37,044 nucleotides of DNA from Mycolicibacterium porcinum (GTDB lineage Bacteria; Actinomycetota; Actinomycetes; Mycobacteriales; Mycobacteriaceae). Below are positions 3,776 through 28,330 of the stretch, piece after piece. The translations under genes and the position numbers were made by a program. The stretch's first letter is position 1; the number at the start of each line of letters is the position of its first letter. Location: positions 1 through 37,044 of the forward strand of contig MVIG01000037.1 of assembly GCA_002086835.1 (NCBI GenBank), written 5' to 3'. The notes under the pieces are model-generated. The model saw only the letters and a list, made by a program, of their open reading frames with translations, did no database searches and was not told where the DNA came from.

Positions 3776-3779
3776 GGCC

Positions 3780-4580
3780 TCACCGTTTTTCCGCTTGGGT
3801 GTGCTGATTGATCCAGGCGGCCACCTGAGCGGGGGCCTCCACCATGGGAAGATGTCCGACGCCGTCGAGGATGACGGTGCTGCCGCCGGTGGCGGCCGCG
3901 ATCTCCACCGTCATCTGCGGCGGGCAGGTCGGGTCGTCGGTGCCGCCGACCGCCAGCACGGGCGCACACACCCGGCCGACCAGGTGCCGGATGTCGGCGC
4001 CGAAGGCGGCCCGCAGGATCGCCGCGACCACGGATTCCGGTCGTTCGCCGGCTACCCGGATGACGTCGTGCAGGGCCGGATCGTCGCGGAAGTTCGGTCC
4101 GACGATCGTCGGCGTCAGCTCGGCGAAATAACGTTGACTTCCAACCGTTTCCAGCTGGTTTACCATCGCCTCGATTTCGGGTTGGGTCAGGCCGGTGCCC
4201 AGCGTCGAGCCCAGGGTGGTCACACTGTGCACCCGGCCGGGGTAGCGAGCCGCCAGGGCCAGGGCAATGGCCCCACCCAGCGAGCCGCCCACCAGGTGCA
4301 CGGCATCCAGGCCCAGCCCGTCGAGCACCGCGAGCACATCCGGTACATATCCGTCGTCGACGGTGTACGGGCCGGACCACACCGATTGCCCGTGCCCGCG
4401 CAGATCAATTGCCACCGCGGGCAACTCCAGCAGCGGCAACACCGAGTTCCACACCACGCCGGCGGTGTTGATCGGATGCAGCAGCACCACTGCGGTCCGT
4501 TGATCGCTGGCGTCTGACCTGGTCACCGCCAGCGGTCCGGCCGGCCCGGCGACTCGACAGGACTGGAATGTCACGGTCAT
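3780..4580 (-). CDS. Alpha/beta-hydrolase fold protein
   Basis: A 266-residue cytoplasmic protein with the full alpha/beta hydrolase pattern: the strand-loop VVLLHPINTAG (oxyanion region, residue 31 on), LRGHGQS at 60, nucleophile elbow VGGSLGG with Ser100, an acidic residue in GGTDDPT (Asp215 or 216) and His243 in GVGHLPMVE. It resembles the enol-lactone hydrolase/esterase branch (PcaD-like), but the substrate cannot be read from sequence. Its ATG overlaps the stop of the SnoaL-like gene (ATGA) and it ends 4 nt before DUF1028, so it sits mid-operon. Most likely it cleaves an ester, lactone or C-C bond made by the P450 and LLM enzymes. Confidence 0.88.
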   Translation of the reverse strand: MTVTFQSCRVAGPAGPLAVTRSDASDQRTAVVLLHPINTAGVVWNSVLPLLELPAVAIDLRGHGQSVWSGPYTVDDGYVPDVLAVLDGLGLDAVHLVGGSLGGAIALALAARYPGRVHSVTTLGSTLGTGLTQPEIEAMVNQLETVGSQRYFAELTPTIVGPNFRDDPALHDVIRVAGERPESVVAAILRAAFGADIRHLVGRVCAPVLAVGGTDDPTCPPQMTVEIAAATGGSTVILDGVGHLPMVEAPAQVAAWINQHTQAEKR

Positions 4581-5044
4581 TCCGTCACGTACTTCGCCGT
4601 TCCGGCCTTGGCTGCCTCACTGACATGCATGTGCCAGATCCGCCACTGCGGCGCACCGGTGCCGTCGTCGCGGCGGTAGAATTCGGTGTTGCGGAACCGG
4701 ATCGGGCCCGAGCTCTCCAGCTTTCCGCTCGCCGAGGGCAACATGAGCTCGCACTCTCCCTCCGAGGTGAGCAGCGCGACATCACCGAACACCTCGACGG
4801 AGGGGGCACCGGTGTCGGAGATGGCGGTGATGTTGGCCCCGATGGCGGTGAGGTTGCGCCACAGCTTCGCCTTGTCCTGCACCCCGTGGTAAGTGAAGCC
4901 ATTGAGGTTGAACTGGTGGTAGGCGTCGCCGCCGGGAAAGAAGCCGATCATGGATTCGGCGATCAGGTCTACGTTCGCCGCCAGCCAGCCGTTGTGCACG
5001 GCGAGGATATCGTCGATGTCGGTGCGGGTGTCGGTGTCGGTCAT
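4577..5044 (-). CDS. SnoaL/NTF2-like small protein
   Basis: A 155-residue protein with an NTF2-like cone fold signature: an N-terminal helix with ILAVHNGWLAANVDLI, a GFFPGGDAYHQFNLNG strand, and a terminal strand WRIWHMHVSE. Members act as small isomerases, hydratases or dehydratases, or as non-catalytic binding subunits; several belong to steroid or aromatic degradation clusters. No catalytic pair can be assigned with confidence. A GGAGA precedes the ATG. It lies 22 nt after the LLM gene and overlaps the alpha/beta hydrolase gene by 4 nt, indicating a role in the same pathway. Confidence 0.75.
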   Translation of the reverse strand: MTDTDTRTDIDDILAVHNGWLAANVDLIAESMIGFFPGGDAYHQFNLNGFTYHGVQDKAKLWRNLTAIGANITAISDTGAPSVEVFGDVALLTSEGECELMLPSASGKLESSGPIRFRNTEFYRRDDGTGAPQWRIWHMHVSEAAKAGTAKYVTE

Positions 5045-5066
5045 GTTGTGTCTCCGTGAGGATCGA

Positions 5067-6068
5067 TTAGAAGAGGGATGCGATGGCGGACAACGATTCT
5101 CGGCCGTTGTCTTCGATCAGCGGTACCACCACGACCTTGTCTGCCCCGGCCTCGAACAGCCGTTTCAGTGCGACCTCAGCCTCGGCCGGTGTGCCCGTGA
5201 TGGACATGGCGTCCACCCAGTGCTCGGGCATCTCGGCGAGCACGACCTCCGGTCCGCCCCGGGTGAGCATCTCGGCGAGCACGTCATTGCCGCCGATCGA
5301 GCCCAGCATCGGGTTCGGCCCGGTCGCGGCAAGGTAGAAGGCCAGCGCAGGCTTGATCTGGTCGCGGGTCCGGACCGCAGCGGCTGGATCGTTGGACAAA
5401 TTGATCGCGCACAGCACCACAAGTTCTGGCTTGTCCTCTCGGCCCGCCTGGGCCGCGGCGGCGTCGAGTTTGATCCGGGCGCCGGCCACATATTCGGGTG
5501 TGGACAGCACGCTGACCACCAGGCCGTCGGCCAGTTCACCGGTCAACGCAATGCCCTTGTCCCCCAACACCCCGACATAGAGCGGGACCCGCTCGGCCGG
5601 CGGATGGGTCAAGCTGACCTCGGTGAAGGAGTGCACCCGGCCCTCGTCGGTCACCGTCTCGGCGCCGAGCAGCCGCCGTACCCCGGTGAGCGTCTCGCGC
5701 AGCGCGCTCATCGGGGACCGGACGGTGAGGCCCATCTGGGCGGTCCAGCCCGGCACCCCATGACCGATGCCAGGCGCGAACCGGCCGGGAAATGCCCGGG
5801 CCAGGGTGGCGATCTCCATGGCCAGCAGCGCCGGATGACGCACTACCGAAGCCACCACCGAGACCCCGACCCGGACCCGGTCCGTAGCACTCAACGCGAT
5901 CGCCGACGCCGCGATGCCGCCGAGGAAGAAGTAGTCCTCCGGCACCCACAGCTCGCCGAACCCGTTGTTTTGCACCCACTTCGCGAGCGATGCGATGTCC
6001 TCGGGCTTGGTGGTGCTGCCCAGCAACACGCCCACCCGTGAACCGTCTACCTGTGTTGTAGTGCTCAA
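5067..6068 (-). CDS. LLM-class (luciferase-like, probably F420-dependent) oxidoreductase
   Basis: A 333-residue TIM-barrel oxidoreductase of the bacterial luciferase-like family. Visible features are LGSTTKPEDIASLAKWVQ, GFGELWVPEDYFFLGG, a VRVGVSVVASVVRHP strand, RFAPGIGHGVPGW, and a C-terminal third with the EAEVALKRLFEAGAD phrase. Mycobacteria use this family mostly with F420, sometimes with FMN; F420 is favoured by context because fgd lies at the end of the same gene run. The start is a TTG that overlaps the ferredoxin stop (TTGA). Likely role: reduction, oxidation or monooxygenation of the imported compound. It is not Fgd itself, which starts separately at the left edge. Confidence 0.85.
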   Translation of the reverse strand: MSTTTQVDGSRVGVLLGSTTKPEDIASLAKWVQNNGFGELWVPEDYFFLGGIAASAIALSATDRVRVGVSVVASVVRHPALLAMEIATLARAFPGRFAPGIGHGVPGWTAQMGLTVRSPMSALRETLTGVRRLLGAETVTDEGRVHSFTEVSLTHPPAERVPLYVGVLGDKGIALTGELADGLVVSVLSTPEYVAGARIKLDAAAAQAGREDKPELVVLCAINLSNDPAAAVRTRDQIKPALAFYLAATGPNPMLGSIGGNDVLAEMLTRGGPEVVLAEMPEHWVDAMSITGTPAEAEVALKRLFEAGADKVVVVPLIEDNGRESLSAIASLF

Positions 6069-6286
6069 CGCTGTCCTCTCGGGTCCTCGTCGGATTCATC
6101 GATGGTCTCGATGGCGCCCACCGGGCAGGCCTCGGCCGCCCGGGTCACGCCGGCCTGCAGCTCGACTCGGGGCTGCTCGTCCAGCAGGGTCACCCAGCCG
6201 TCCGGGGTGCTGCCGAACACCTCGGGCGCGTTGCGCCGGCAGATTCCGCTGGCCATGCAGTGTTCGGCAGTGACGATCACTCGCAT
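6065..6286 (-). CDS. Small ferredoxin, [3Fe-4S] type, P450 redox partner
   Basis: A 73-residue ferredoxin. Its Cys pattern is C10-MASGI-C16 and later C54-P: the second Cys of a classical CxxCxxC is replaced by Ser13, so it should hold a [3Fe-4S] cluster. This is the standard type encoded next to mycobacterial P450 genes and passes single electrons from a reductase to the P450 heme. The open frame extends further upstream, but the ATG at 6286 gives the family's exact N-terminus (MRVIVTAEHC). It starts 13 nt after the P450 stop and its own stop overlaps the LLM start. A tail rich in acidic residues (ESDEDPRGQR) follows the last Cys. Confidence 0.92.
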   Translation of the reverse strand: MRVIVTAEHCMASGICRRNAPEVFGSTPDGWVTLLDEQPRVELQAGVTRAAEACPVGAIETIDESDEDPRGQR

Positions 6287-6299
6287 CGCAACCCCGCTC

Positions 6300-7541
6300 T
6301 CAGAGCCGGACCGGACGCGAATGCCAGCCGCGGGCCAGGATGTTGCTGGTGCGGCGCACCGCGGGTCCGCTGCCTGCGCTGAAATTCGGGAATCGCTCCA
6401 GGATCTTGCGCAGCACGACGGCGGTCTCCAGCCGGGCCAGCGGCGCCCCGACGCAGAAATGGATGCCATGGCTGAACGACAGGTGCCGGGACGCGTCGCG
6501 GGAAATATCGATCACCCCGGGATCGTCGAACTGCCGGGGATCACGGTTGGCCGCGGCGATGATCTGGAAACACATCTGGCCGGCCTTGATCTGCTGACCG
6601 CCGTACTCCACGTCCCGGAGCGCCTTGCGGAAGTCCATGTGGAACGGCGGGTCGAACCGCAGCATCTCCTCGAGCGCCACCGGAATCAGCGAGGGATCTT
6701 CCTGCAGTTGGGCTTTGATGTCGGGGCGGTCGATCATGATCGTCATCGCGCTGCCGATCAGCGAGGTGGTGGTGTCGTTGCCCGCCGACAGCAACAACGT
6801 TATCTGCGAGACCGCCTCGTCTAGCTCCAGCAGTTCGCCGGAATCGGTCTCGGTGGACGCGATGAGGGTGATCAGATCGTCCTGCGGATCGGCCTTGCGC
6901 TGCTTCACCAACTCGGCCAGATAGTCCAACATCTCCAGCGAGGTCCGGATCGACTCGTCACGCAGCCGGCCTTGAACCCCGGCGTCGAAGGTCCGACCGA
7001 AAGCCTCCGACCATTCCCGCAACTGCGACCACATGTCCTTGGGCACACCGAGAATCGAGGCGATCACTGCCACCGGTATGTCTGCGGCGAGGTGCGGCAT
7101 GATGTCGAGTTCCTCACCCGGCTGATACCGGCCGAGCACCTCGTCGGCGACCTCTTCCATCGACGAACGCCAACGGGCGACGGACTGGGGAGTGAACGCG
7201 TGCCGAAATATCGAGCGGATCCGGGTGTGATCCGGCGAATCCTTGAAGATGAACTGCCGCGAGCTGATCGAGATGAACCGGCGATGTTCAGCATCCTCGG
7301 GGTCGTGGATGCCCGGGCCGCCTGCGAAGAAGGTGTCGTTGGAGAAGACATCGTGCTGCGACACCATCGACCGCACATCGTCATACCGGCAGACGATCCA
7401 GGCGCCGAGCACATCGGACCAGTGCACGCCCGAGCCGAGCTCCCTGAGCTGTTCATAGAGCGGGTACGGGTCTGCGACGCCGCCCAGGACCAGGTCCCGG
7501 ACAATCGCCGCTGCGTCGACGTCTTCGATCGCGCCTACCAC
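6300..7541 (-). CDS. Cytochrome P450 monooxygenase
   Basis: About 413 residues, a normal soluble bacterial P450. Landmarks in order: the DPYPLYEQLRE N-terminal helix, SPDHTRIRSIFRHAFTP (C helix), the I-helix oxygen motif AGNDTTTS, the K-helix ExxR in EEMLRFDPP, and the heme-binding loop SFSHGIHFCVGAPLAR with Cys at about residue 363. It would hydroxylate or dealkylate the imported substrate with electrons from the ferredoxin downstream. I place the start at the GTG at 7541, which has GGAGG 5 nt upstream; a GTG at 7553 is in frame but lacks such a site. It heads the catabolic gene run; the operator-like motif shared with the mce operon lies about 80-130 nt upstream. Subfamily not assigned. Confidence 0.93.
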   Translation of the reverse strand: MVGAIEDVDAAAIVRDLVLGGVADPYPLYEQLRELGSGVHWSDVLGAWIVCRYDDVRSMVSQHDVFSNDTFFAGGPGIHDPEDAEHRRFISISSRQFIFKDSPDHTRIRSIFRHAFTPQSVARWRSSMEEVADEVLGRYQPGEELDIMPHLAADIPVAVIASILGVPKDMWSQLREWSEAFGRTFDAGVQGRLRDESIRTSLEMLDYLAELVKQRKADPQDDLITLIASTETDSGELLELDEAVSQITLLLSAGNDTTTSLIGSAMTIMIDRPDIKAQLQEDPSLIPVALEEMLRFDPPFHMDFRKALRDVEYGGQQIKAGQMCFQIIAAANRDPRQFDDPGVIDISRDASRHLSFSHGIHFCVGAPLARLETAVVLRKILERFPNFSAGSGPAVRRTSNILARGWHSRPVRL

Positions 7542-7618
7542 TTGTACCTCCACGGTCGTGGTTTGAAAGTCGTTATCCCCTCGCGGGGTTCAGATGACAC
7601 TCCCATCCGGCGCCGGGC

Positions 7619-7671
7619 CGTCACATCGGTATAGCGCGCACCGGCACTACGTAACTGCGCCTTGTCGACGC
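7619..7671 (-). promoter_or_regulatory. Shared operator/promoter-like motif upstream of the P450 gene
   Basis: ACTACGTA at 7646-7653 and TTGTCGACGC at 7662-7671, separated by 8 nt, are identical in sequence, spacing and orientation to a pair at 16933-16958 upstream of yrbEA. A second weaker block, CGTCACATCGGTAT at 7619-7632, agrees with the yrbEA region at 11 of 14 positions. TACGTA and GTCGAC are each self-complementary. Between here and the P450 start lie two further palindromic stretches, CCGGCGCCGG at 7607-7616 and CCCC-TCGC-GGGG at 7577-7588. Read on the minus strand, TATACC at about 7627-7632 could be a -10 element, which would put the motif at and upstream of -35. Confidence 0.65.
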
Positions 7672-7692
7672 ACTGCGAAACCCCCGAAAAGA

Positions 7693-7729
7693 CGAGAGCG
7701 GCACCACCGAAAAGGTGGTGCCGCTCTCG
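7693..7729 (-). terminator. Intrinsic terminator closing the mce operon
   Basis: A perfect 16-bp inverted repeat (7693-7708 with 7714-7729) around a 5-nt loop, beginning 14 nt past the mceF stop. Read on the minus strand the stem is followed directly by TCTTTTC, a short U-run, so it fits a Rho-independent terminator. It separates the yrbE-mce transcript from the P450 run and lies just upstream of the P450 regulatory motif, so the P450 run is expected to have its own promoter. Confidence 0.85.
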
Positions 7730-7742
7730 CCGTCCCCTGGCG

Positions 7743-9173
7743 TTACCGGGGCGGGGGTGTCAGCATGTCCTGCCAGGTCTGGTGTGACCCGTTGCGGGCC
7801 AAATCGGCCTGGCTGTAGAGCCGGCCGTCGGGTGCCAGATAGCTGCCGGTGGCCGGGTCGTACGGGACCGCGGCGATCGGCGCGGAGCCCGGCGACGGAG
7901 CCATCGGTTGCGGCACCGCCTGCCCGGTCAGCGTCGCGTTCGGATCGCCCTTCCAGACGTAGCCGTCGTTGAGCGGCACGTACTCCTGATCGCTCTCGCA
8001 CATCTCGACCGTCGGTGCGCGTTTACCGGGGACGGTCAAGCACGGCAGGTTGCGGGCACCTCGCACTGCGAGCATCGGATCATCCTTGGGCACCCGGCAA
8101 TACAACGCTCCGGCGGGACGCTCTGGGTGATCTTCATGCGCCGGAGCCCGCTGTTGCTGAGGCGGCAGGAATCCGGTGTTGCACGGCGGCGGCAGGTTGA
8201 GGTTCAGATTGAAGTCCAGGTACATCCCGGTGTAGTCCTGCTTGGTGTTCAGATTGGCCACACCAAGGGCCCCCATCATCGCGGTGGCCTGGGGTAACAA
8301 CACCAGCAGCTGTTCTACCGCCGGCTGATAGGCGATCGCGATCTGCTCCAGGCTGACCAGATTGGCCAGCAGCACCGGCAAAGTGGGCCGGACCTGTTCG
8401 ACCAGCTGCCTGGCTTCGTCCGCGGCCGTCGGCATCGCATTGATCATCTCGCTGAAGGCGGCGTCGTGGTTGCGGACTTGTCCGGTGATGGCGGCCAGGT
8501 TGGCGGCCCAGGCCTGGATCGAACCTGCGGTCTCGGTTTGGGAGTCGAATACCGGTTTGGACTGTTCGATCAGCGTGACGATCGGTTCCAGCTCGGTGCG
8601 GGCGTCGATCGCCAGCTTGCTGGCGCCCTTGACAATCCGGGACAGTTCGGGGCCCAATCCCGATACCGCCGTGTAGCTTTCGTCGATCACGGTTTGCAGG
8701 TTCTGCTGGGGGATGGCGGCCAGGCCGCGGTTGGTCGCATCGAGCAGGCTGCTGACGTCCGGCGGCACCGTGGTCCGGCTCATCGGGATGACATCCCCAT
8801 CGGACAGGGCCGGACCGTCGGCCCCACGTGGCAGCAGGGCGACGTAGAGTTCGCCGATCGCCGACTGGCTGTGTACCTGGGCGTCGACGTCGGCGGGAAT
8901 CTTGATCTCGGACTTCAGCGACAACACGGCCTGCGCGCCGGCGTCGGTGAGCCGCACCTCGCTGACCCGCCCAACCTCGGTGCCCCGGTAGGTGACATTG
9001 CCCCGCTCGTACAGTCCACCGGCCTGCGGCAGGTCGACGGTCACGGTGTAGCGGCCGATCCCGAACAACTGGGCGGGCAACTGCATGTAGCCACCCGCCA
9101 TGACCGCGACGGAAACCATTGCCACCACGGCGAATATCGCGAGCTGGATCTTGGCCAGCCGATTCAGATACAT
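7743..9173 (-). CDS. mceF: Mce family protein MceF
   Basis: A 476-residue Mce protein, last gene of the import operon. One N-terminal transmembrane segment (about residues 8-30) is followed by an MCE/MlaD domain at about 40-115 (GLYERGNVTYRGTEVGRVSEV), a long helical region of about 200 residues, and a Pro-rich C-terminal tail with scattered Cys. It should join the heterohexameric MceABCDEF tube that carries hydrophobic molecules across the periplasm to the YrbE permease. The start ATG is separated by only 1 nt from the mceE stop; the frame opens further upstream, but the family N-terminus begins MYLNRLAKIQ. Confidence 0.93.
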   Translation of the reverse strand: MYLNRLAKIQLAIFAVVAMVSVAVMAGGYMQLPAQLFGIGRYTVTVDLPQAGGLYERGNVTYRGTEVGRVSEVRLTDAGAQAVLSLKSEIKIPADVDAQVHSQSAIGELYVALLPRGADGPALSDGDVIPMSRTTVPPDVSSLLDATNRGLAAIPQQNLQTVIDESYTAVSGLGPELSRIVKGASKLAIDARTELEPIVTLIEQSKPVFDSQTETAGSIQAWAANLAAITGQVRNHDAAFSEMINAMPTAADEARQLVEQVRPTLPVLLANLVSLEQIAIAYQPAVEQLLVLLPQATAMMGALGVANLNTKQDYTGMYLDFNLNLNLPPPCNTGFLPPQQQRAPAHEDHPERPAGALYCRVPKDDPMLAVRGARNLPCLTVPGKRAPTVEMCESDQEYVPLNDGYVWKGDPNATLTGQAVPQPMAPSPGSAPIAAVPYDPATGSYLAPDGRLYSQADLARNGSHQTWQDMLTPPPR

Positions 9174-9174
9174 G

Positions 9175-10299
9175 TCACGGCCCCTGATCGAACTGATACG
9201 GCGCCACCAGCGGGTTGCCCCCGGTGGCCGGGCTGGGCAGTTGGCCGATGGTGCGGCCCCATTGCATCTCCAATCGGGTGAGCGCACCTTCGAACCGGGT
9301 CCCGGTGAACAGCGACGTGTCGAGACGGCTCAGGGTCAGATCGAAGATCGCGGTGAGGTTGGCATAATCGCCGCGCAGCCACTTGAGCACACCCTCCTTG
9401 GGCCACGGGAAGGTCGCGAACAGCGAAAGCGACCGAGTCATCGCAGGTCCGGCGTTGGCCAACGAGTCGAGCACCGGCCCGATGTCGCGGAACTCATGCG
9501 CCAGCGACTCCTTGGTCTGATCGATCGAGTCGGCCAGCAGCGCGTTGAGCCGACCGAAGCTGTCCAGCGCTTCGACCAACTGCTCGCGATCATCCTTGAG
9601 TACCTCGAGCGCGTTCGGAATGGTCCGTAACGCCCGGTCCAGCACTGGTTTATCGACTGCAAACCGGCCTGTCAGTCGGTTCAGCCGGTCGGTCGCGGTG
9701 AGGATGTCGTCCTTCTGTCGGTCCAGATGACCGATGAACTGATCCATCTGATCGACAAAGCTGCGCAGCTCGTTCTCCCGGCCGGCCAGCGCCGTGCTGA
9801 AGGCCCGGGTGATGTCCTGCATCTGGCCCAGGCCGCCGCCGTTGAGCAGCATCGATGCCGCGGCCAGCGTCTGTTCGGTGGTTGGGTAGGCCGCACCGCG
9901 ATCCAGGGCGATCGTCGAACCGGCCCTCAGCCGTCCACGGGGCGGTTCCCCGGCGGGCGGCGCGAGTTCGACGTGCAGCGAGCCGAGCAGGCTGGTCTGC
10001 CCGACCTTGACGGTCACATTCTCCGGCAGCTGGACATCGTCGAGCAGGTGCATCGTCACCACGGCATGCCAGCCCTGCAGCTCGATTCCGGTGATGCTGC
10101 CCACCACCGCATCAGCCACCCGCACCCGCGAATTGAGTTGCAGGTTGGTGACATCGGGTAGTTCGGCGTGAACCTCGAAGGATCCCGGACCGCGACCCTC
10201 CACCCCGGGCAGCGGTAATGAGTTCAGGCCCTGCCACGCACAACCGGTGGCCAGAAGCGGTATCGCAGCCAGCATCGTGACAATCCGCCGGCGGATCAC
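9175..10299 (-). CDS. mceE: Mce family lipoprotein MceE
   Basis: A 374-residue protein with a lipoprotein signal: basic start MIRRR, hydrophobic core, and a lipobox ending LLATGC with Cys20 as the lipidation site. The MCE domain (ELPDVTNLQLNSRVRVADAVVGSITGI) covers about residues 45-120 and a helical region follows. Position five in the operon plus the lipobox identify it as the MceE/LprK orthologue, which anchors the Mce tube in the envelope. Its GTG start overlaps the mceD stop by 4 nt. The tail is short and lacks the Pro-rich extension seen in MceC. Confidence 0.93.
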   Translation of the reverse strand: MIRRRIVTMLAAIPLLATGCAWQGLNSLPLPGVEGRGPGSFEVHAELPDVTNLQLNSRVRVADAVVGSITGIELQGWHAVVTMHLLDDVQLPENVTVKVGQTSLLGSLHVELAPPAGEPPRGRLRAGSTIALDRGAAYPTTEQTLAAASMLLNGGGLGQMQDITRAFSTALAGRENELRSFVDQMDQFIGHLDRQKDDILTATDRLNRLTGRFAVDKPVLDRALRTIPNALEVLKDDREQLVEALDSFGRLNALLADSIDQTKESLAHEFRDIGPVLDSLANAGPAMTRSLSLFATFPWPKEGVLKWLRGDYANLTAIFDLTLSRLDTSLFTGTRFEGALTRLEMQWGRTIGQLPSPATGGNPLVAPYQFDQGP

Positions 10300-11570
10300 G
10301 ATCCGCCTCCCGGCTGCGCAACCATCATGCCTTCCAATCCCTTCTCGGGGTCCGTGGCCTCCGCTGCCGGCGGTGGCTGAATTACTGCCGACTCCGGGCC
10401 GGCATGGTCCGGGCGCATCCAGTTCTCGCTGTAGGTCAGCTCATTGGGCCGAGCCGAGGCGTTGACGAACGGGTTCAGACCGATCGGGAGGAAGTTGTAC
10501 TGGCGGTTCTTGACGATCGGGGCGAGGTACTGCACGCACAATTTCGCCGACTGCTCAGCCCCCAGCCGGGACGCGGCCTGCACCGCACCGCACAGGAATT
10601 GGATCGGGTTGGCAAAGTTGTTCAGGGCCAGCGCACCGGTCAGTGACGCGTGGGCCGGCTCGTAGATGTTGACCAGGTTCTGCAGTGTGGTCGGGGCCAG
10701 GTGCAAGGCCTGTTTGATGTCCCCGCTGCTGTCGGCCAGCGCCTGGGCGATCGAATTGAGTTTGTCGGCGCCGAAGCCGACCGCCTCGCGATGTTCGGCT
10801 GCGAACGACGCGATGTCACGCGCGGCAGTGTTCAAACCCTCGACAGCGGAACCGATCTGGGCCGGGTCGTCGGCGAGCAGGGAAGTCGCCGACGCCAGGT
10901 TCCGGTTGAGGTCCTTCATCAGTCCGGTGCTCGTCTGCAGGGCCGAGACCAAGGTCGCCAGACCCTTGACGGTGCCGAACACATCGGTGCTGTGATCGCC
11001 CAGCGCAGACATGGCCCGGGACAGTTCCAGGATCGCCGCGCGAATGTCGGCACCGCGCCCGCGCAGATTCTCCGCGGCGGTGTCGACGAACGCACCGAGC
11101 GGGCTGGTGCCGTCCGAGCCCGGTTGCAAACTGGCACTGAGCTTCTCCAGCTGGGTGCGGAAGTCATCCCACTCGACCGGCACGGCAGTGCGGCTCTGCG
11201 GGATGACGGCACCGTCGGCCAGCTCGGGGCCGCCGGTGTAGGCAGGCGTCAACTGGATGGCCCTGGAGGTGATCAGCTGTGGCGACAGGATCGCCGCGCC
11301 GGCGTCGGCCGGCACCTGATGGCGCCGGTCGATCCAGAAGGTGATCTTGGCCCGTTCCGGCTGCGGCTCAATCGCGGTGATCTCGCCGATCCGGACGCCC
11401 AACAACACGACGTCATCGCCGGGGAAAATCCCGTTGCTGTTGTCGAAGTACGCGGTGATCGTGGTGCGGTTGGCGGTCGCCAGTCCGCGGACCAGCACGG
11501 CGGTTCCGGCCACCAGGCTCACCACCAATGCCGCGGTCACCCCGATCCGCACGGCCCGTTGCTTGTTCAC
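10296..11570 (-). CDS. mceD: Mce family protein MceD
   Basis: A 424-residue Mce subunit with an N-terminal transmembrane segment at about residues 10-30, an MCE domain at about 35-115 (GIFPGDDVVLLGVRIGEITAI), the linker PQSRTAVPVEWDDF that introduces the helical barrel region, and a tail with ENWMRPDHAG before a Pro/Ala-rich end. It belongs to the same periplasmic heterohexamer. It is coupled on both sides: its start overlaps the mceC stop by 4 nt and its end overlaps mceE by 4 nt. Confidence 0.93.
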   Translation of the reverse strand: MNKQRAVRIGVTAALVVSLVAGTAVLVRGLATANRTTITAYFDNSNGIFPGDDVVLLGVRIGEITAIEPQPERAKITFWIDRRHQVPADAGAAILSPQLITSRAIQLTPAYTGGPELADGAVIPQSRTAVPVEWDDFRTQLEKLSASLQPGSDGTSPLGAFVDTAAENLRGRGADIRAAILELSRAMSALGDHSTDVFGTVKGLATLVSALQTSTGLMKDLNRNLASATSLLADDPAQIGSAVEGLNTAARDIASFAAEHREAVGFGADKLNSIAQALADSSGDIKQALHLAPTTLQNLVNIYEPAHASLTGALALNNFANPIQFLCGAVQAASRLGAEQSAKLCVQYLAPIVKNRQYNFLPIGLNPFVNASARPNELTYSENWMRPDHAGPESAVIQPPPAAEATDPEKGLEGMMVAQPGGGS

Positions 11571-12832
11571 GGCTCGTCTCCTTCGATTGTCGGGGCCGGC
11601 CCAGAGCCCGATGCGGGTCCCGGTGCCGGTGGACCGGGCGGCGGTCCACCGGGTTCGGGCGCCGGCGGCGGCTCCCGGTATGGATACCGTGGGTCGCCGG
11701 GATTTCCGGTGATGGCGTCGGGCAGCGTCAGTCTCGGCTCGCCGCCCTGACCGGTACGCGGATAGGGCACCGGCTGCGGCGGGGTGCCGGGCTGGCCGGT
11801 CTGCGGATCGTTGAGCTCGGTGGGCGGCAGCACGTTCGGGTCGAGACCTAGGTCGGAGAAGGCGGCGTCGATGAATGGCTGGACGAATTGGCCGGGCAGT
11901 AGATTGACCAGATAGGCCTTGAAGAACGGCCCGGACGCCACCGATTCACCGAGCGACATCATGTAGCGGTGCAGCATGGTGATCACCTGCTGGACGTTGT
12001 GCTTGCGCGCCTCGACGATCGCCAGCACGCCGTTGAGCTTCTCCAGCGCCGGGCCCAGGGTGGCGCGGTTGTCGGCGATGAAACCCGAGACCTGCGCGGT
12101 GGCCGCCGTGACGGTGTTGGTGATCTGATCCAATGCCGCACTCTGAGTGAGCAATTGCGCCAACAGGGCATTGCTCTGGGCGATCAGCCCCACCACCTGA
12201 TCGGTGCGCTGCGCCAGCACCCCGGTGGCTCTGTGCGCGTTGGTCAGCAGAGCGCGCAACTGCTGGTCCCGTTCTCCGAGGGTGTGGGAGAACCGGGCCA
12301 CCCCGTCGACCGCGACCCGCAGTTCCGGCGGGGTCTCCCGGAAGGTCTGACTCAGGGTCCGCAGCGACTCATCGAGTCGGTCGGTGTCCAGGCCGGCCAC
12401 GGTGTCGGCCAGATCACCCAGGGCGTCGGGTAACTGGTAGGCGGGTGTGGTGCGGTCGATCTCGATGGGGCCGCGCAGGGTGCCGTCCCCGCGCGGCGTC
12501 ACTTCGAGTACCTTGGCGCCGAGCAGGCTGCGGGTCTTGACGGCGGCCTCGGTGCGCTCCCCCAGCCGGATATTCTTGTCGACGTCGAAGGCGATCAGGG
12601 CCCGGGGGCCGTCCAGTTCGACACTCGTCACCTCCCCTACCCGGTATCCCGCCACCTGGACCGCGGCGCCGGGCATCAGGCCGCTGGCATCGGCAAAGTA
12701 GGCCGAATACCGCTGCCCCGACGCGAAGAACGGCAGCTTCTTGTACTGCAACGCTCCCGCCACGATCATCGCGACCAGCGTGATGCCGATCAGACCGATC
12801 ACCATTGGATTGCGTTCGGAGAAGGATTTCAT
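11567..12832 (-). CDS. mceC: Mce family protein MceC with Pro/Gly-rich C-terminal tail
   Basis: A 421-residue Mce subunit. A transmembrane segment lies at about residues 8-27, an MCE domain at about 40-115 (GLMPGAAVQVAGYRVGEVTSV), and a helical region to about 310. From about residue 330 on the chain is low-complexity Pro/Gly/Thr/Glu (for example EPPPAPEPGGPPPGPPAPGP), probably disordered and possibly spanning or contacting the cell wall. The ATG at 12832 overlaps the mceB stop (ATGA); the open frame upstream of it is only a shadow inside mceB. MceC proteins of other mycobacterial loci have similar tails. Confidence 0.92.
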   Translation of the reverse strand: MKSFSERNPMVIGLIGITLVAMIVAGALQYKKLPFFASGQRYSAYFADASGLMPGAAVQVAGYRVGEVTSVELDGPRALIAFDVDKNIRLGERTEAAVKTRSLLGAKVLEVTPRGDGTLRGPIEIDRTTPAYQLPDALGDLADTVAGLDTDRLDESLRTLSQTFRETPPELRVAVDGVARFSHTLGERDQQLRALLTNAHRATGVLAQRTDQVVGLIAQSNALLAQLLTQSAALDQITNTVTAATAQVSGFIADNRATLGPALEKLNGVLAIVEARKHNVQQVITMLHRYMMSLGESVASGPFFKAYLVNLLPGQFVQPFIDAAFSDLGLDPNVLPPTELNDPQTGQPGTPPQPVPYPRTGQGGEPRLTLPDAITGNPGDPRYPYREPPPAPEPGGPPPGPPAPGPASGSGPAPTIEGDEP

Positions 12833-13857
12833 TTCGCCGCACACCGCCCGGTGCTCTGACCGGCCACCTTCACGTACACGGGTTGCCCGCCTTTGCCATT
12901 GAGTTTGAAGATGGCATCGCACAGATAGAAGGAGAAGTAGTCGCCGTAGAGCGCCATCCGATTCAGTGCCCGGTAGGTGTCGGGCAGCGTGTCGAGCAGA
13001 TCCTCCACATAGTCCTTGTCCGCCAGCACCGCCGAGGTGACCCGATCAGACTGGTTCACAACATTTTTGATGTCTTCGCGGGTCTGCCCCAACAGCTCGG
13101 TCACACCGGCCGCCAGCTGATTGGACGAGGCGATGCTGTCGGCGATGTCGGTCTTGCGGGCGGCCAGCCCGTCGACGAGTTCGGACAGCGAATCGACGGT
13201 CTTGTCGAACTGATCGGTCTCATCTCCGAGCGCGCCCAGCACGGAGTTGAGGTTGACGATCACCTCTCCGATGAGCTGGTCGCGGTCGGCGAGGGTGTTG
13301 GTCAGCGAGGCGGTCTGCTGCAAAAAGGACCCGATGGTGGCACCCTGGCCCTGGAACGCCTCGATCAGCTGTTGGGTAAGGGTGTTCATGGTTTCGGGTT
13401 CCAGCGCGCGGAACAGTGGCCGGAAACCGCCGATCAGCGCATCGAGATCGAGTGCCGGTTCGGTGCGGTCCACCGGGATCGTCGCGCCGGCCGCGAGCCG
13501 CTGCAGACCACCCGGACCTTCCTGCAGTTCCAGGTACCGTCCGCCGATCAGGTTGTCGTAGCGGACCATCGCACGGGTGCCCTCGGTGAGGGCGACGGCC
13601 GAATCGACCGCGAATTCCACCACGGCCCGGTTGTCGTCGTTGACGAAGATCGTGCCCACCTTGCCCACCTCGACGCCGGCGATCCGGACGAAGTTGCCCT
13701 CCTCCAGCCCGCTGATGTTGACGAACTCGGCCCGGTAGGACCGGTCGTCATTGAAGCGCAGCTCCGCGAACACCATGAGCAGCACGAAGGTGCCCACCCC
13801 GCAGGCGGTCAGAAACGCTCCGAGCCGCCAACCGACTCCGGCCAGGCTGTTCTTCAC
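12829..13857 (-). CDS. mceB: Mce family protein MceB
   Basis: A 342-residue Mce subunit, shorter than its neighbours as is usual for MceB. A transmembrane segment at about residues 12-32 precedes the MCE domain (GLEEGNFVRIAGVEVGKVGTI, about 40-115); a helical region follows, and the C-terminus has two Cys (in FYLCDAIF and GRCAAK) that are common in MceB and may pair. The GTG start at 13857 has AGGAGGG 5 nt upstream. It is 19 nt after mceA and overlaps mceC by 4 nt. Confidence 0.93.
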   Translation of the reverse strand: MKNSLAGVGWRLGAFLTACGVGTFVLLMVFAELRFNDDRSYRAEFVNISGLEEGNFVRIAGVEVGKVGTIFVNDDNRAVVEFAVDSAVALTEGTRAMVRYDNLIGGRYLELQEGPGGLQRLAAGATIPVDRTEPALDLDALIGGFRPLFRALEPETMNTLTQQLIEAFQGQGATIGSFLQQTASLTNTLADRDQLIGEVIVNLNSVLGALGDETDQFDKTVDSLSELVDGLAARKTDIADSIASSNQLAAGVTELLGQTREDIKNVVNQSDRVTSAVLADKDYVEDLLDTLPDTYRALNRMALYGDYFSFYLCDAIFKLNGKGGQPVYVKVAGQSTGRCAAK

Positions 13858-13876
13858 CGTTGCCCTCCTGTCGTGG

Positions 13877-15190
13877 TCATGGATTCGCCGGCTCGCCGAG
13901 GGCTGAATCTGGCGGCGGTGGAAGGGGTTGGTAGGCCGGGGCGCCCGGATACGGCACCGGGCCGATCGCCGGCGGGCCGGCTCCGTGCACGCTCGGCGGT
14001 TCGGGCGCGGCCCGGGTGACCGGGAAGTAGTTGGCCCACCACGGGTGTCCGATGCCCGGGTTGGGTCGCCAGTCGATGCCGGTGCCCCATCCGGTGTTGG
14101 TGATCAGCTGACGCACCGGGAACTGCTTGCTGACATCGGGCAGTGACCCGCAGCCAGGCTTTCCGCCCGGCCCTCCCTTGGCCGCCACGATCGGCAGATT
14201 GTCCGGGTAGCGGTAGGGGTCTTCACCCAGGTTTATGGCGCTGTCCAAGACGATGCTCCGACCGTTGCCGCCGACCTGCTGCTGGCCGCCGTTGTCCAGG
14301 AACCATTTGGCGCCCAGCAACATGCAGGTATAGCTCGGGTCATACGTCTTGACGAGTGCGGTGGTCGGGTCCAGGTGGTTGATCGCACCGATCAGGTTGC
14401 CCTGATTCGGCCCGATCAGGCTGCTGCCGGCGCCGGCGAAGCCGATCACGTTGAGCAGCAGGCTGTCCAGCGTTTGGGCGTTGCCGGAAACCGTTTCACC
14501 GATCGTGGCGCCGGCATCCAACACGGCGACGATGTCGTCGGCGGCCGCCGCATAGCTCGCGCTGAACTCGCCGAGTGCACGCCAGTCGGCCTGGGCCAGG
14601 TCCATCCGCGGATTGACCTCGGCCAGAACTGAATTGCTCGCCGAGAGCGCGTCACCCATCCGCTCGCCCTGGCCGCGCACTCCCTCTGCCAGCGCGGTGA
14701 GAGTGGCGTTCAACTTCGGCGGATCGACCCGGTGCAACACGTCGACCAGGTTCTGGAACACCGTGTTGACCTCGGTGGTAACATTGCCCGAAATCAGCGT
14801 CGTACCAGGCGAAATCCGTTGCGCGGACGGTTGGTCCGGGTAGACCAGCTCGAGGTACTTGGCTCCGAATGCCGTGGTGGCCCGGATCTCGGCCCCCACG
14901 TTGGCCGGGATGTGGTTCACCTGGTCGGGAAACAGCTCCAGCTGCAGCCGGACCGGATCGGTGCCGGTTACCCCGGCCACCCGGCCGACCTGCACACCAC
15001 GCATCTTGACCTTGGCACCGGACTCCATCACCAGGCCCGACCGCTCGGCAGTGACGGTCACCGGGACATAGGAGGTGAACTTGCCGGTGAACAGCACCAC
15101 CGTCATCACGACGATGGCGACCACCGTGGCCAGCAGCAGCAGCGTCCACACTCCCGGCGGGATGCTGCGTCGAGTTTTCTTGGTAGGCAT
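13877..15190 (-). CDS. mceA: Mce family protein MceA
   Basis: A 437-residue first Mce subunit. A basic N-terminus (MPTKKTRRS), a transmembrane segment at about 13-36, an MCE domain at about 40-118 (SGLVMESGAKVKMRGVQVGRV), a helical barrel region, and a long C-terminal region with the MceA-type block DPSYTCMLLGAKWFLDNGG and later a Pro-rich end. MceA subunits are surface-accessible in M. tuberculosis and the C-terminal region helps set substrate preference. It begins 3 nt after yrbEB. I do not assign a locus number (Mce1, 3, 4 and so on) because that needs a phylogeny. Confidence 0.93.
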   Translation of the reverse strand: MPTKKTRRSIPPGVWTLLLLATVVAIVVMTVVLFTGKFTSYVPVTVTAERSGLVMESGAKVKMRGVQVGRVAGVTGTDPVRLQLELFPDQVNHIPANVGAEIRATTAFGAKYLELVYPDQPSAQRISPGTTLISGNVTTEVNTVFQNLVDVLHRVDPPKLNATLTALAEGVRGQGERMGDALSASNSVLAEVNPRMDLAQADWRALGEFSASYAAAADDIVAVLDAGATIGETVSGNAQTLDSLLLNVIGFAGAGSSLIGPNQGNLIGAINHLDPTTALVKTYDPSYTCMLLGAKWFLDNGGQQQVGGNGRSIVLDSAINLGEDPYRYPDNLPIVAAKGGPGGKPGCGSLPDVSKQFPVRQLITNTGWGTGIDWRPNPGIGHPWWANYFPVTRAAPEPPSVHGAGPPAIGPVPYPGAPAYQPLPPPPDSALGEPANP

Positions 15191-15193
15191 CGA

Positions 15194-16048
15194 TCATCCC
15201 GCGAGGTTGAAGTTGCCCGACTGCCCGTATACGGCCAGCGAAATCGTGGTCACCACGGACGCGGACACCACCAGCGAAGTCCGCACTGCCCGCCCGACCG
15301 CCTGGCCCACCCCGGCCGGCCCGCCCGAGGCGGTGAACCCGTAATAGCAGTGGACCAGCATGATGACGGTGGCCATGGTGATGGATTGAGCGAAGGACCA
15401 GATCAGGTCGGTCGGGTTGAGGAATGTGTTGAAGTAGTGGTCATAGACGCCGGTCGACTGGCCGTAGATCGCGGTGGTCCCGACCCGGGCCGCGGTGAAC
15501 GCCATCGTCACACCGACGCAGTACAGCGGAATCACCACGATCACCCCGGCGATCACCCGGGTGGAGGCCAGGTAGGCGATGCTGCGGATGCCGATGACCT
15601 CCAGTGCATCGATCTCCTCATTGATCCGCATCGCCCCGAGCTGAGCGGTGGCGCCCGCCCCGATCGTGGCTGCCAACGCGATCGCGGTGGTGCCCGGCGC
15701 GATGATGCGCACGTTGAGGAACGCCGAGGCAAAACCGGTCAGCGCTTCGACGCCGATGTTGGCGAACTGGTTGTACCCCTGCACTGCGATGACCGCACCG
15801 GTCGACAGGGTGAGGAAGCCGACGATGGCCACAGTCCCGCCGATGATGGCCAGCGCACCGACGCCCAGTCCCATCTGTGCGATCAGCCGCAGCAGTTCGG
15901 TCCGGTAGTTGGTCACCGCGTCGCCGGTGGACGCGAGCACCTTGAAGTAGAACTCGGCCTGCATCCCGACCCGGTCCCAGCCCTGCTTCCAGCCCCTGAG
16001 GGCGTGGCCGAGGCGGGTGCGGGTGGCCGGCACCGATGCGGCGGTCAC
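15194..16048 (-). CDS. yrbEB: YrbEB permease of the Mce transporter (MlaE-like)
   Basis: A 284-residue integral membrane protein with five to six hydrophobic segments and the MlaE/YrbE permease signature: a helix AGATAQLGAMRINEEIDALEVIGI containing the conserved E-x-D-A-L coupling motif that contacts the ATPase, and a C-terminal GGPAGVGQAVGRAVRTS segment. It forms a heterodimer with YrbEA in the inner membrane and is driven by an MceG-type ATPase, which is not encoded in this window. Its start overlaps the yrbEA stop by 4 nt. Confidence 0.94.
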   Translation of the reverse strand: MTAASVPATRTRLGHALRGWKQGWDRVGMQAEFYFKVLASTGDAVTNYRTELLRLIAQMGLGVGALAIIGGTVAIVGFLTLSTGAVIAVQGYNQFANIGVEALTGFASAFLNVRIIAPGTTAIALAATIGAGATAQLGAMRINEEIDALEVIGIRSIAYLASTRVIAGVIVVIPLYCVGVTMAFTAARVGTTAIYGQSTGVYDHYFNTFLNPTDLIWSFAQSITMATVIMLVHCYYGFTASGGPAGVGQAVGRAVRTSLVVSASVVTTISLAVYGQSGNFNLAG

Positions 16049-16815
16049 AGCGTCACCTGCACGCCGACCGCGGTCACGACGATGTTGATGGCGAACAGCG
16101 TCATGAAGGTGAACACCACGGTCTCGTTCACGGCGTTGCCGACGCCGGCCGGTCCACCGCCGACCGAAATGCCCTTGTAGCAGGCGATCAGGCCGGCGAC
16201 CGTGCCGAAAATAGCACCCTTGATCAGGGCGATCACCACCTCGGCGACACCGGTCAGCAGAGTGAACCCGGCGACGAAGTTGCCCGGCGACACGTGCTGG
16301 ACATACACACAGAAGAAGTACGCCCCGGTCAGCCCGACCAGGATCACCGTCGAGGCCAGGGCCGTCGCGACGGTCGCGGCGGCGAGCACCCGGGGCACCA
16401 CCAGGGCCTGCACCGGGTTGATGCCCATCACCCGTAGGGCATCGAGCTCCTCACGGATGGTGCGCGCCCCCAGATCTGCACACATCGCGGTGGCGCCGGC
16501 CCCGGAGATCACCAGAACCGTTGCCAGCGGGCCAATCTGGGTCACGGTGCCCAGCGCCGCCCCGGTCCCCGACAGGTCGGCCGCGCCGAATTCGATCAAC
16601 AGAATGTTCAGGGTGAAGACCAGCAGAACCGAGTACGGGATGGTCAGCATCAGGGCCGGCAGCAGCGATACCTTCGCCACGAACCAGGTTTGGGTCAGGT
16701 ACTCACGCCAGGCGAACTGGGTCCGGAACAGAGTGACGAAGGTGTCCAGTGAGAGCGCGAAGAACTCTCCGGTCGCGTTGAGCGGCCGCGACACCGCCTT
16801 CACCGCGGTCACCAT
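16045..16815 (-). CDS. yrbEA: YrbEA permease of the Mce transporter (MlaE-like), first gene of the operon
   Basis: A 256-residue integral membrane protein. The MlaE motif is present as AMCADLGARTIREELDALRVMGI with the E-L-D-A-L coupling helix near residue 123, and a C-terminal GGGPAGVGNAVNETVVFT segment mirrors that of YrbEB. It pairs with YrbEB as the membrane gate receiving substrate from the Mce tube. It heads the eight-gene operon; the ATG at 16815 is the first good start, with further in-frame GTGs just after it. The regulatory motif lies about 90-145 nt upstream. Confidence 0.94.
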   Translation of the reverse strand: MVTAVKAVSRPLNATGEFFALSLDTFVTLFRTQFAWREYLTQTWFVAKVSLLPALMLTIPYSVLLVFTLNILLIEFGAADLSGTGAALGTVTQIGPLATVLVISGAGATAMCADLGARTIREELDALRVMGINPVQALVVPRVLAAATVATALASTVILVGLTGAYFFCVYVQHVSPGNFVAGFTLLTGVAEVVIALIKGAIFGTVAGLIACYKGISVGGGPAGVGNAVNETVVFTFMTLFAINIVVTAVGVQVTL

Positions 16816-17122
16816 TGCTGGTCCTGCTCAAAGATCCTCGGACTCATCTGCCGTTCATCCTCCTGCCGCCGGCTGACGCCCCCAAGAATGGTCTGGGTCA
16901 CATCCGCGCCACATCCGTAGCTACGTGTCCCGACTACGTACGTAGCGGTTGTCGACGCTTACCCGCCCTTAAAAATAGGAGCCGGCCGCTGACAAACCGG
17001 GGCCGGTCCGGTTATTGTGTGCCGCAACGCGTCAGCGATCGGCGCCGCCTCGGCTTCTTCTGAAACCTAATAGGCACATAATCTTTCGGCTTTCTCGAAG
17101 CGCCACCCGCTATGGAGGTTCC
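16816..17122. other. Divergent intergenic region between yrbEA and the FprB-like gene (307 bp)
   Basis: No gene is visible here. It must contain both divergent promoters. Towards yrbEA it holds the motif described at 16907-16958, including the perfect 12-bp palindrome CTACGTACGTAG at 16934-16945 and GTAGCTAC at 16917-16924. Towards the FprB-like gene, TAATCT at 17079-17084 is a possible -10 element about 39 nt before the start codon, with no convincing -35. A GC-rich stretch ACCGGGGCCGGTCCGGT lies near 16996-17012. The AT-rich run TTAAAAATAGGA at 16969-16980 stands out from the local composition. Confidence 0.6.
16907..16958 (-). promoter_or_regulatory. Shared operator/promoter-like motif upstream of yrbEA
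   Basis: ACTACGTA at 16933-16940, 8 nt, then TTGTCGACGC at 16949-16958: every one of these 18 positions and the spacing match the copy at 7646-7671 upstream of the P450 gene. CGCCACATCCGTAG at 16907-16920 is the weaker second shared block. In this copy the TACGTA half is extended to the palindrome CTACGTACGTAG. The conserved layout in front of two adjacent operons suggests a binding site for a common regulator. Confidence 0.65.
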
Positions 17123-18718
17123 ATGCCGTACGTCATCACGCAGAACTGCTGCAAGGACGCCAGCTGCGTGCCGGTGTGCCCGGTCGACTGCATCAGGCCC
17201 AACCGGGATTCCGCCGGCACCGAGATGCTCTACATCGATCCCGGCACCTGTATCGACTGCGGGGCCTGCCAGGAAGTCTGTCCGGTCGACGCGATCTACA
17301 GCGCCGATCAGCTCCCGCAGCCACTGGCACCGTTCGCCGGACTCAACGCGGCATACTTCGACGCCCACCCGCTGCGCCCGGCCGATCCACCGGTCCCACC
17401 CGCCCGCCGGACCTCACATCCGTCCACCCTGCGGGTGGCGATCGTCGGTGCCGGCCCGGCGGGATGTTACGCGGCTACCGAGCTGCTGGGCGTACGCAAT
17501 ATCGAGATCGAGCTGTTCGACCGGCTGCCAACACCTTTCGGCCTCATCCGGGCCGGGGTCGCACCCGACCATCAAGCCACCAAGAATGTGGTGCGGGTGT
17601 TCGATCGCGGGCTCGCCGACCCCCGGTTGCACTGCCATTTCAATGTGGAGATCGGCACCCGGATCACCCATGCCGATCTGCTGGCCCACCATCACGCGGT
17701 CATTTATGCCGTCGGGGCCTCTGCCGGCCGCAAGCTCGGAATCGGCGGCGAACCGTTGCCGGGTCACCACAGCGCGGCCGACTTCGTGTCCTGGTACAAC
17801 GGCCACCCCGACGCCGCAGACATCGAGGTCAACACCAGCCACCTGCGCGCGGTGATCACCGGCAACGGCAACGTTGCCCTCGACATCGCCCGGATGCTAC
17901 TGCTGGACCCGGATCGACTCGCGGTCACCGACATCGCCGACCACGCCTTGGACACCCTGTCGCGCAGCATGATCCGGGAAGTAGTGGTCCTGGCCCGGCG
18001 GGGACCGCGCGACGCGGCCTTCTCGGTCGGCGAGTTTCTGGCCCTCGGCGATCTGGACGGGGTGGACATCCAGCTGGTGGGAGCCGACGACCTCACCGGC
18101 CGGCCCGGTGACGATGTGGAAACCGCAGCCAAACTCGACCTCGCCCGCAGTTACGCGGCCCGGTCCATCTTGCCCGGCAACAAGCGACTGGTCCTGCGGT
18201 TTCACACCGAGCCGGTCGAATTGCTCGGCCCCGACCGGGTCCGCGCCCTACGGGTCCGCGAGACGGGCGCGGCCGGGGGCGGCGACGAGATACCAGCCGG
18301 GCTCGTGATCTCGGCCATCGGTTACCGCGGCCGGCCGGTCGAGGGGCTCGGCTTCGACGATGAGCGTGGCATCGTCCCCAACGACCGCGGGAAGGTGGTC
18401 GATGCGCCGGGTGCCTACGTCACCGGCTGGATCAAGCGCGGTCCGCGCGGCGTGATCGGCACCAACCGAATCTGCGCAGCCGAGACGGTAGCGGCGCTGC
18501 TCTCAGATTTCGATGCCGGGCTGCTGGACCGCGAGATCAGCGACCGCCAGGCCCTGGGTGAACTCCTGACCGACCGTGGGATCACCGAGATCGGCTGGCC
18601 CGGATGGTTGTCCATCGATGCGGCCGAACGGGCCCGGGGCGCGCAGGTATCGCGTCCGCGCCGAAAGTTCGTCACGGTGGACTCCCTGCTCGGATCTGCG
18701 CTGAGCCGCTCGACCTAG
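17123..18718 (+). CDS. FprB-type fusion: 7Fe/8Fe-like ferredoxin domain plus adrenodoxin-reductase-like NADPH oxidoreductase
   Basis: A 531-residue two-domain protein. Residues 1-65 are a ferredoxin with C9, C15, C19, C23 and a classical C43-IDCGACQEV-C53-P cluster motif. From about residue 105 an FAD domain begins (VAIVGAGPAGCYAA), followed by PFGLIRAGVAPDHQATK, an NADPH-binding GNGNVALDIAR segment and the adrenodoxin-reductase end motif GWIKRGPRGVIGTN. This is the layout of M. tuberculosis FprB (Rv0886). It transfers electrons from NADPH to ferredoxins or P450s. The ATG at 17123 has GGAGG 4 nt upstream. Its divergence from the mce operon and nearness to a P450-ferredoxin pair make it a likely electron source for that pathway. 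Confidence 0.92.
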   Translation: MPYVITQNCCKDASCVPVCPVDCIRPNRDSAGTEMLYIDPGTCIDCGACQEVCPVDAIYSADQLPQPLAPFAGLNAAYFDAHPLRPADPPVPPARRTSHPSTLRVAIVGAGPAGCYAATELLGVRNIEIELFDRLPTPFGLIRAGVAPDHQATKNVVRVFDRGLADPRLHCHFNVEIGTRITHADLLAHHHAVIYAVGASAGRKLGIGGEPLPGHHSAADFVSWYNGHPDAADIEVNTSHLRAVITGNGNVALDIARMLLLDPDRLAVTDIADHALDTLSRSMIREVVVLARRGPRDAAFSVGEFLALGDLDGVDIQLVGADDLTGRPGDDVETAAKLDLARSYAARSILPGNKRLVLRFHTEPVELLGPDRVRALRVRETGAAGGGDEIPAGLVISAIGYRGRPVEGLGFDDERGIVPNDRGKVVDAPGAYVTGWIKRGPRGVIGTNRICAAETVAALLSDFDAGLLDREISDRQALGELLTDRGITEIGWPGWLSIDAAERARGAQVSRPRRKFVTVDSLLGSALSRST

Positions 18719-21727: not shown

Positions 21728-21752
21728 ATTTCCTCCTGTTATCTGGTGACGG

Positions 21753-23371: not shown

Positions 23372-23382
23372 TGCTCTCCTCA

Positions 23383-26039: not shown

Positions 26040-26067
26040 GACGGCTCCGGATGTCTTGGTTTCTTTC

Positions 26068-28166: not shown

Positions 28167-28242
28167 CGATCCCTCCTCGGACGAAGACGTGCCGAGAGCC
28201 TGCAGCGCGCGCCAATCGCATAGCAACAACTACGCACATTCA

Positions 28243-28315: not shown

Positions 28316-28330
28316 GAACCCGACACAGCA

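Follow-up and report, generated by a model that had tools for sequence, protein, structure and literature searches.

A three-block promoter element common to an mce operon and a P450 operon of Mycolicibacterium porcinum, with a linked LAL protein as its candidate activator

The stretch of DNA considered here (the window) comprises 37,044 nucleotides of contig MVIG01000037.1 from the Mycolicibacterium porcinum assembly GCA_002086835.1. It carries, one behind the other on the minus strand, an eight-gene lipid-import mce operon and a seven-gene operon headed by a cytochrome P450, each preceded by a copy of the same three-block element, and upstream of both a gene for a large ATP-binding regulator of the LuxR family (LAL). 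This arrangement forms an island that recurs in other genomes of the genus, and its genes are as follows:

18715..21039, minus strand: LAL (MalT-type) regulator of 774 residues, proposed binder of the element, from domain matches and orthologue distribution
7743..16815, minus strand: mce operon, comprising yrbEA (16045-16815), yrbEB (15194-16048) and mceA to mceF, from family matches and orthologues in four more islands
1695..7553, minus strand: P450 operon, from family matches, with the same gene order in five genomes, comprising
6300-7553, minus strand: P450
within 6065-6469, minus strand: ferredoxin
5067-6068, minus strand: luciferase-like oxidoreductase
4577-5044, minus strand: SnoaL-like protein
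3780-4580, minus strand: alpha/beta hydrolase
2864-3775, minus strand: DUF1028 protein
1695-2867, minus strand: M20 ArgE/DapE-type deacylase

The four mce-operon proteins that were scanned, namely those of yrbEA, yrbEB, mceE and mceF, match the MlaE permease, MlaD and Mce families. Searches across 396 genomes of the genus recovered P450 orthologues with 74-78% identity in four genomes besides that of the window, designated G251, G354 (M. komossense), G316 (M. aurum) and G199, and in all five islands the P450 operon follows the mce operon of eight genes. When stretches of 46 kb around these loci (37 kb for the window) were compared through their open frames of at least 80 residues, at thresholds of at least 35% identity and at least 60% coverage, the LAL gene, the mce operon and the P450 operon were common to all five and nothing else was. 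The LuxR-type protein nominated as a candidate regulator in an earlier note on this DNA is thus the sole regulator common to the stretches compared; in M. komossense its gene lies immediately before the mce operon.

Alignment of the ten regions upstream of yrbEA and of the P450 gene in the five genomes yields an element that reads, on the strand of the genes, GCGTCGACA-N5-TACNTACGTAG-N15-TACGGATGTG, and is present at all ten sites. In the window its parts and the associated hexamers are placed thus, the blocks having been delimited from the ten-promoter alignment:

16950..16958, minus strand: block 1 of the yrbEA element, GCGTCGACA
16934..16944, minus strand: block 2 of the yrbEA element, TACGTACGTAG (consensus TACNTACGTAG)
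16910..16919, minus strand: block 3 of the yrbEA element, TACGGATGTG
16885..16890, minus strand: CATTCT, candidate -10 hexamer for the mce operon, beginning 29 nucleotides past the start of block 3
7663..7671, minus strand: block 1 of the P450 element, GCGTCGACA
7647..7657, minus strand: block 2 of the P450 element, CAGTTACGTAG
7622..7631, minus strand: block 3 of the P450 element, TACCGATGTG
7597..7602, minus strand: GAGTGT, candidate -10 hexamer for the P450 operon, which of all ten matches least well

Columns 2-9 of block 1 are nearly invariant across the ten promoters and the gap between blocks 1 and 2 is exactly 5 nucleotides in every one of them, while the spacer between blocks 2 and 3 measures 15 nucleotides in eight sites, 14 in the yrbEA copy of the window and 3 in the P450 copy of M. 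aurum. Correspondingly, the starts of TACGTAG and TACGGAT are offset by 22 nucleotides in eight of the sites, with one site each at 21 and 10, distances that would correspond to about two helical turns, or one. A -10-like hexamer of the form [CG]ANNNT begins 28-29 nucleotides past the start of block 3 at all ten sites, and in eight of them it reads ATTCT or ATCCT; if it is real, block 3 is located where a -35 element would be. From the start of block 3 to the start codon there are 98-121 nucleotides for yrbEA and 75-78 for the P450 gene, several of these start codons being estimates. A scan of positions 7400-7900, around the P450 element, found no sigma-70-like promoter.

The element is larger than the earlier note had described. 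That note reported two copies of ACTACGTA-N8-TTGTCGACGC, and both are indeed present without a mismatch at 7646-7671 and 16933-16958, with 8-nucleotide spacers, ACTGCGCC and CGTAGCGG, that agree by eye at one position of eight. The core of this motif is retained in the relatives, but its boundaries need redrawing: conservation excludes the first T of TTGTCGACGC but takes in part of the 8-nucleotide spacer. Similarly, a further block, said to agree at 11 of 14 positions between the copies, does so by our count by eye, but it is no separate entity, being part of the element as TACGGATGTG. The supposed rarity of TACGTA in DNA this rich in GC fails, with three occurrences in the window against 3.2 expected from composition; all three fall inside the two elements. 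GTCGAC is frequent, with 41 occurrences in the window.

The full form of the element is restricted to these two promoters. At up to three mismatches the original pattern is expected 0.04 times in the window, and two matches arose in none of 100 shuffles. In the whole M. porcinum genome (6.96 Mb), the scan that the earlier note had called for returns at up to two mismatches only these two copies, and a third copy at three mismatches stands at the level of chance (reversed control 3+1). In a draw of 98 genomes of the genus, which included just the window's among the five island genomes, this shorter pattern gave five further matches, each with two mismatches and in five genomes, fewer than the nine of its reversed control. 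A 25-position pattern, which misses three of the ten known sites owing to spacing or mismatches, matched seven times among the 396 genomes at up to three mismatches, every time at an island promoter, with none for the reversed control; the scatter through unrelated DNA that would have told against a regulatory site is thus not observed for the full element, and neither is the other adverse outcome, a lack of conservation at orthologous loci. Likewise, a 23-nucleotide pattern run against the five genomes at zero or one mismatch matched seven times, in each case at an island promoter. Isolated parts do turn up inside the islands: L102:9142 has CTACGTAG, and GTCGACA-N5-TA is seen at L085:1765, L100:2381 and L105:2855. 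Ten loci with P450 relatives at 44-53% identity (L087-L096) lack the element, their best profile score being 11.8. At 21 loci with distant LAL homologues (19 with short flanks, one of them a fragment in genome G171, and two 26-kb stretches of Rhodococcus plasmids) no two different blocks were found within 80 nucleotides on one strand, and isolated parts were present in six, a count made without a shuffled control. Longer stretches around ten LAL homologues of 37-43% identity reached a best profile score of 15.8, as against 24.0-39.7 for the ten true sites.

Within each genome the yrbEA and P450 copies agree with each other at 34 of 35 positions of block 1, 44 of 50 of block 2 (its N omitted) and 49 of 50 of block 3, summed over the five genomes. 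Agreement drops to 6 of 25 in the N5 spacer, 107 of 300 in the 60 nucleotides upstream of the element and 27 of 80 in the 16 nucleotides downstream of block 3, and is intermediate (23 of 48) in the 12 nucleotides of the central spacer that adjoin block 3, where G316 was omitted for its short spacer. That the blocks agree while the flanks and spacers have diverged argues for constraint and rules out recent copying of one region from the other.

LAL regulators are typically about 700-1000 residues long, and their prototype, MalT, governs maltose uptake in an enterobacterium through a different binding sequence. The island protein belongs to this class by its length of 774 residues, its N-terminal Walker A (GVGGAGKT at residue 50) and Walker B (LLVLD at about residues 121-125, located by eye from the alignment consensus) motifs, weak matches to AAA/NB-ARC domains, and a C-terminal GerE helix-turn-helix (HTH; PF00196, residues 713-765, E 3.2e-17), which matches the HTH chains of NarL, GerE and DevR by sequence and in which the segment SRRTVEAH is identical in all five genomes. 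Full-length orthologues with 65-70% identity occur in exactly the five genomes of the 396 that carry the P450 (at least 74% identity) and the element, and in its own genome the protein is the sole match at E <= 1e-15. The only other genome with similar LAL identity among 296 relatives of G251 is G171, which has a fragment (L172:12489-13718) that corresponds to residues 18-430, is interrupted by a stop and lacks the HTH; the 50 kb around it contain no mce operon, P450 or element. In a plasmid collection, all 1384 records for the P450 and 334 of 335 for the LAL fall below 60% identity, the ten listed for the latter lying at 42-44%. Together, distribution and linkage favour the LAL protein as the probable binder of the element. 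Separately, in genome G163 (L183:9732-17252) an mce operon that lacks the element has, 4.5 kb upstream of it, a distant LAL homologue (39% identity, one internal stop), an arrangement seen in one of ten distant homologues examined.

An informative precedent is TpdR of Rhodococcus jostii TMP1, a LAL of 788 residues that acts as a substrate-responsive activator of a catabolic promoter with two 15-nucleotide direct repeats, one of which lies over the -35a region, while activity was lost on deletion within the other (PMC6099782). As in that system, judged from the accessible portions of its description, a LAL of similar length here stands beside a catabolic operon whose promoter has a direct repeat, and the proximal half of this repeat would be at -35 should the -10-like hexamer be genuine; in contrast to the present system, the repeat proposed for TpdR is TnnAAnnGCGGAnTC, and those portions name no importer in tpdABC (PMC6099782). 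The same portions contain a 9-nucleotide match, CATCCGTAG (the reverse complement of CTACGGATG, taken from mutagenesis primers), which overlaps TpdR box D, where one point change abolished activity although a 5-nucleotide deletion no more than halved it (PMC6099782); we regard this resemblance as a weak lead. MalT of E. coli, too, is described there as binding two decanucleotides in direct repeat (PMC6099782).

Given this TpdR-like layout, with an in-phase repeat whose proximal half would be at -35, and the lack of a sigma-70-like promoter around the P450 element, we propose a substrate-induced LAL activator. Its ligands would be ATP and an inducer, the latter probably either the compound taken up or one of its products. 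The protein would then assemble at the element, where TACGTAG and TACGGAT would act as direct-repeat sites facing the same side of the helix, TACGGAT overlapping the -35 position. Both operons would thereby be activated together, switching on import along with oxidation and hydrolysis. We infer, further, that the imported molecule is the one which the P450 operon breaks down. That the three-block element provides promoter control placing the mce and P450 operons in one small regulon under the neighbouring LAL activator is, on the comparative evidence, a probable reading; it upholds the suggestion of the earlier note that lipid import and P450-based catabolism are controlled through one shared element.

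Several observations weigh against this proposal. The co-distribution of LAL and element is weakened as evidence by their linkage in one co-inherited island, and G316 and G199 are close (91% identity for the LAL, 93% for the P450), which leaves about four independent lineages. At up to three mismatches the 23-nucleotide pattern gave 29 matches in the five genomes, nine of them island promoters, against 34 in the control, so that weaker sites elsewhere are indistinguishable from chance. Neither TACGGATGTG nor TACNTACGTA was found elsewhere in the island stretches; hence the LAL gene itself is without them. Finally, block 2 contains an 8-bp palindrome, CTACGTAG, and in this it resembles what is often seen in repressor operators.

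This palindrome is the starting point for the strongest alternative, in which another regulator encoded elsewhere, for instance a TetR- or GntR-type repressor acting on CTACGTAG, binds the element. The alternative gains from the fact that Mce3R, a known regulator of mce genes, is a TetR-like repressor in the available parts of its description (PMC11667970). Against it, the five stretches compared share no second regulator gene, and the long pattern is absent from 391 of the 396 genomes, which means that a binder encoded elsewhere must either be equally rare or serve other sites. No TetR-family repressor was met near the regulon, where the LAL gene is the sole gene shared beyond the operons, although the neighbours were not all scanned against families. 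The consensus sequences of KstR and KstR2, as generally known, have no match upstream of either operon of the window, and control by these two can be set aside. We therefore judge an unlinked repressor unlikely, though it deserves to be taken seriously. An Lrp-type neighbour was also considered as the common regulator and rejected: a protein of that appearance, judged by eye, ends directly ahead of the element, but does so in G316 and G199 alone, and the Lrp/AsnC gene of the window (28331-28777) lies beyond another cluster.

Much less plausible is that the element is mainly the promoter of an alternative sigma factor acting without a dedicated activator. The distance from block 3 to the -10-like hexamer, fixed as it is at 28-29 nucleotides between starts in ten of ten sites, is what such a promoter would display, but blocks 1 and 2 are conserved about as well as block 3 and, with a 15-nucleotide spacer, lie about 43-68 nucleotides upstream of the hexamer, too far for sigma contacts alone. 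That the two copies are a chance likeness or a recent duplication with no regulatory role has next to nothing to commend it: the motif was found by eye and combines two palindromes, GTCGAC and TACGTA, the former common and the latter no rarer than composition predicts, but five genomes conserve it amid diverged spacers and flanks, and no shuffled window matched it twice.

Returning to the proposed LAL regulon, the histories of its parts in M. komossense (G354) differ. The mce proteins of this genome are 53-73% identical to those of the other islands and its P450-operon proteins 64-84%. A tree was built from five concatenated mce-operon proteins of eight operons, three of them from outside the island (two of these three are short of one or two proteins). 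In it a split with a support of 100 sets G354 and the outside operons apart from the remaining four island operons, and placing G354 beside G251 is rejected (approximately unbiased (AU) test, p 1.1e-5). The LAL tree groups G354 with G251, also with a support of 100; the element is thus retained in G354 despite an mce history that conflicts with that of the linked LAL. Read most simply, these trees would mean that the promoter stayed in place while the mce genes below it were replaced by those of another lineage, perhaps a sister one. Faster evolution is an alternative to such an exchange, and eight operons are few. Other results speak against an exchange: a single group of all five island mce operons withstands testing and indeed gives the best tree; the P450 tree places G251 with G316 and G199 (support 81) rather than with G354, which is short-branched there; and single-gene trees disagree, yrbEA placing G354 with the operon of M. 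litorale (94) and mceA not doing so. A still broader picture may be drawn, in which a MalT-type ATPase activator responds to a lipid-like compound that has been imported and, through the three-block promoter, commits the cell to taking it up and oxidising it, while recombination in M. komossense swapped the mce machine and kept its control, making the promoter the stable unit and the transporter the replaceable one. We offer this tentatively, as somewhat less probable than its negation, the more so since the five island mce operons together were not rejected and the P450 tree is unlike that of the LAL.

That mce operons may share a regulator with other metabolic genes is already known from Mce3R and KstR. 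The KstR regulon joins mce4 to cholesterol catabolism, thereby placing a lipid importer and catabolic genes under one regulator; KstR is a TetR-type repressor with a short palindrome, and the present system differs from it in that this palindrome is missing from both upstream regions. As in regulons of the Mce3R and KstR type, one kind of element, here a putative operator, is common to the mce and catabolic promoters (ten of ten). The well-known mce regulators, which include GntR-type repressors besides those of the TetR type, are repressors; if the proposal is true, a MalT-type activator would operate on an mce operon. To our knowledge, the substrates and inducers of most mce transporters have not been established. 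An element to which both a candidate activator and a catabolic operon are linked would offer a direct route to them, and a reporter placed on it would reveal which compounds induce import. We recognised no description of LuxR or LAL control of an mce operon in the part of the open-licence literature that was covered. In the portions of the Mce3R study at hand, this regulator of M. tuberculosis has two 25-bp sites 53 bp apart, and, like the system described here, combines one regulator at the yrbEA promoter and other metabolic genes with long asymmetric sites; it differs in being a double TetR-type repressor, where the linked candidate here is a LAL, and in the layout of its sites (PMC11667970). 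As far as the accessible text of its report goes, IniR offers a mycobacterial parallel, being ATPase/MalT-like, having a LuxR-like HTH and serving a single operon, but, unlike the LAL, it controls iniBAC in cell-envelope stress, and its link to mce runs the opposite way, with mce1 mutants lowering iniBAC induction (PMC5760070).

Between mceF and the P450 element the window holds one further feature:

7691..7731, minus strand: strong hairpin with an 18-bp stem

A 74-nucleotide stretch here folds at -49 kcal/mol (z -7.1), and a terminator scan that requires a run of T found no terminator. Transcription of the mce genes perhaps stops at the hairpin, in which case the P450 operon would depend on a separate promoter; the hairpin fits two transcripts. 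In G251 a hairpin of different sequence was seen by eye at the equivalent place, upstream of the P450 gene in L083.

The other neighbours are more variable. Divergent from the yrbEA element, 17123-18718 codes for a fusion of ferredoxin and ferredoxin reductase (FprB-like), a possible redox partner of the P450, and no match to it was seen in 20-kb stretches of the other four islands. Adjoining the LAL gene, 21098-22313 codes for 3-hexulose-6-phosphate synthase and 6-phospho-3-hexuloisomerase, the ribulose monophosphate pair for formaldehyde fixation, also present in G251 and G316 and hence in three of five islands; the P450 pathway may release formaldehyde by demethylation. At 22310-28777 lie genes for an amino-acid dehydrogenase (ScyB-like), the 2-oxoacid dehydrogenase components E1-E3 and the Lrp/AsnC regulator. 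A similar set of dehydrogenase enzymes, 35-60% identical and differently arranged, is divergent from the mce operon in G251, G316 and G199, and together with the M20 deacylase it hints at the breakdown of N-acyl amino acids. The protein of 28787-29503 has a metallo-beta-lactamase fold and scores under the cut-offs of the 25 NCBIfam families shown. Finally, the pairing of P450 and mce recurs beyond the island: relatives of the P450 with about 52% identity (L088, L089 and L091) adjoin a different mce operon, without the element, in G184, G363 and G178.

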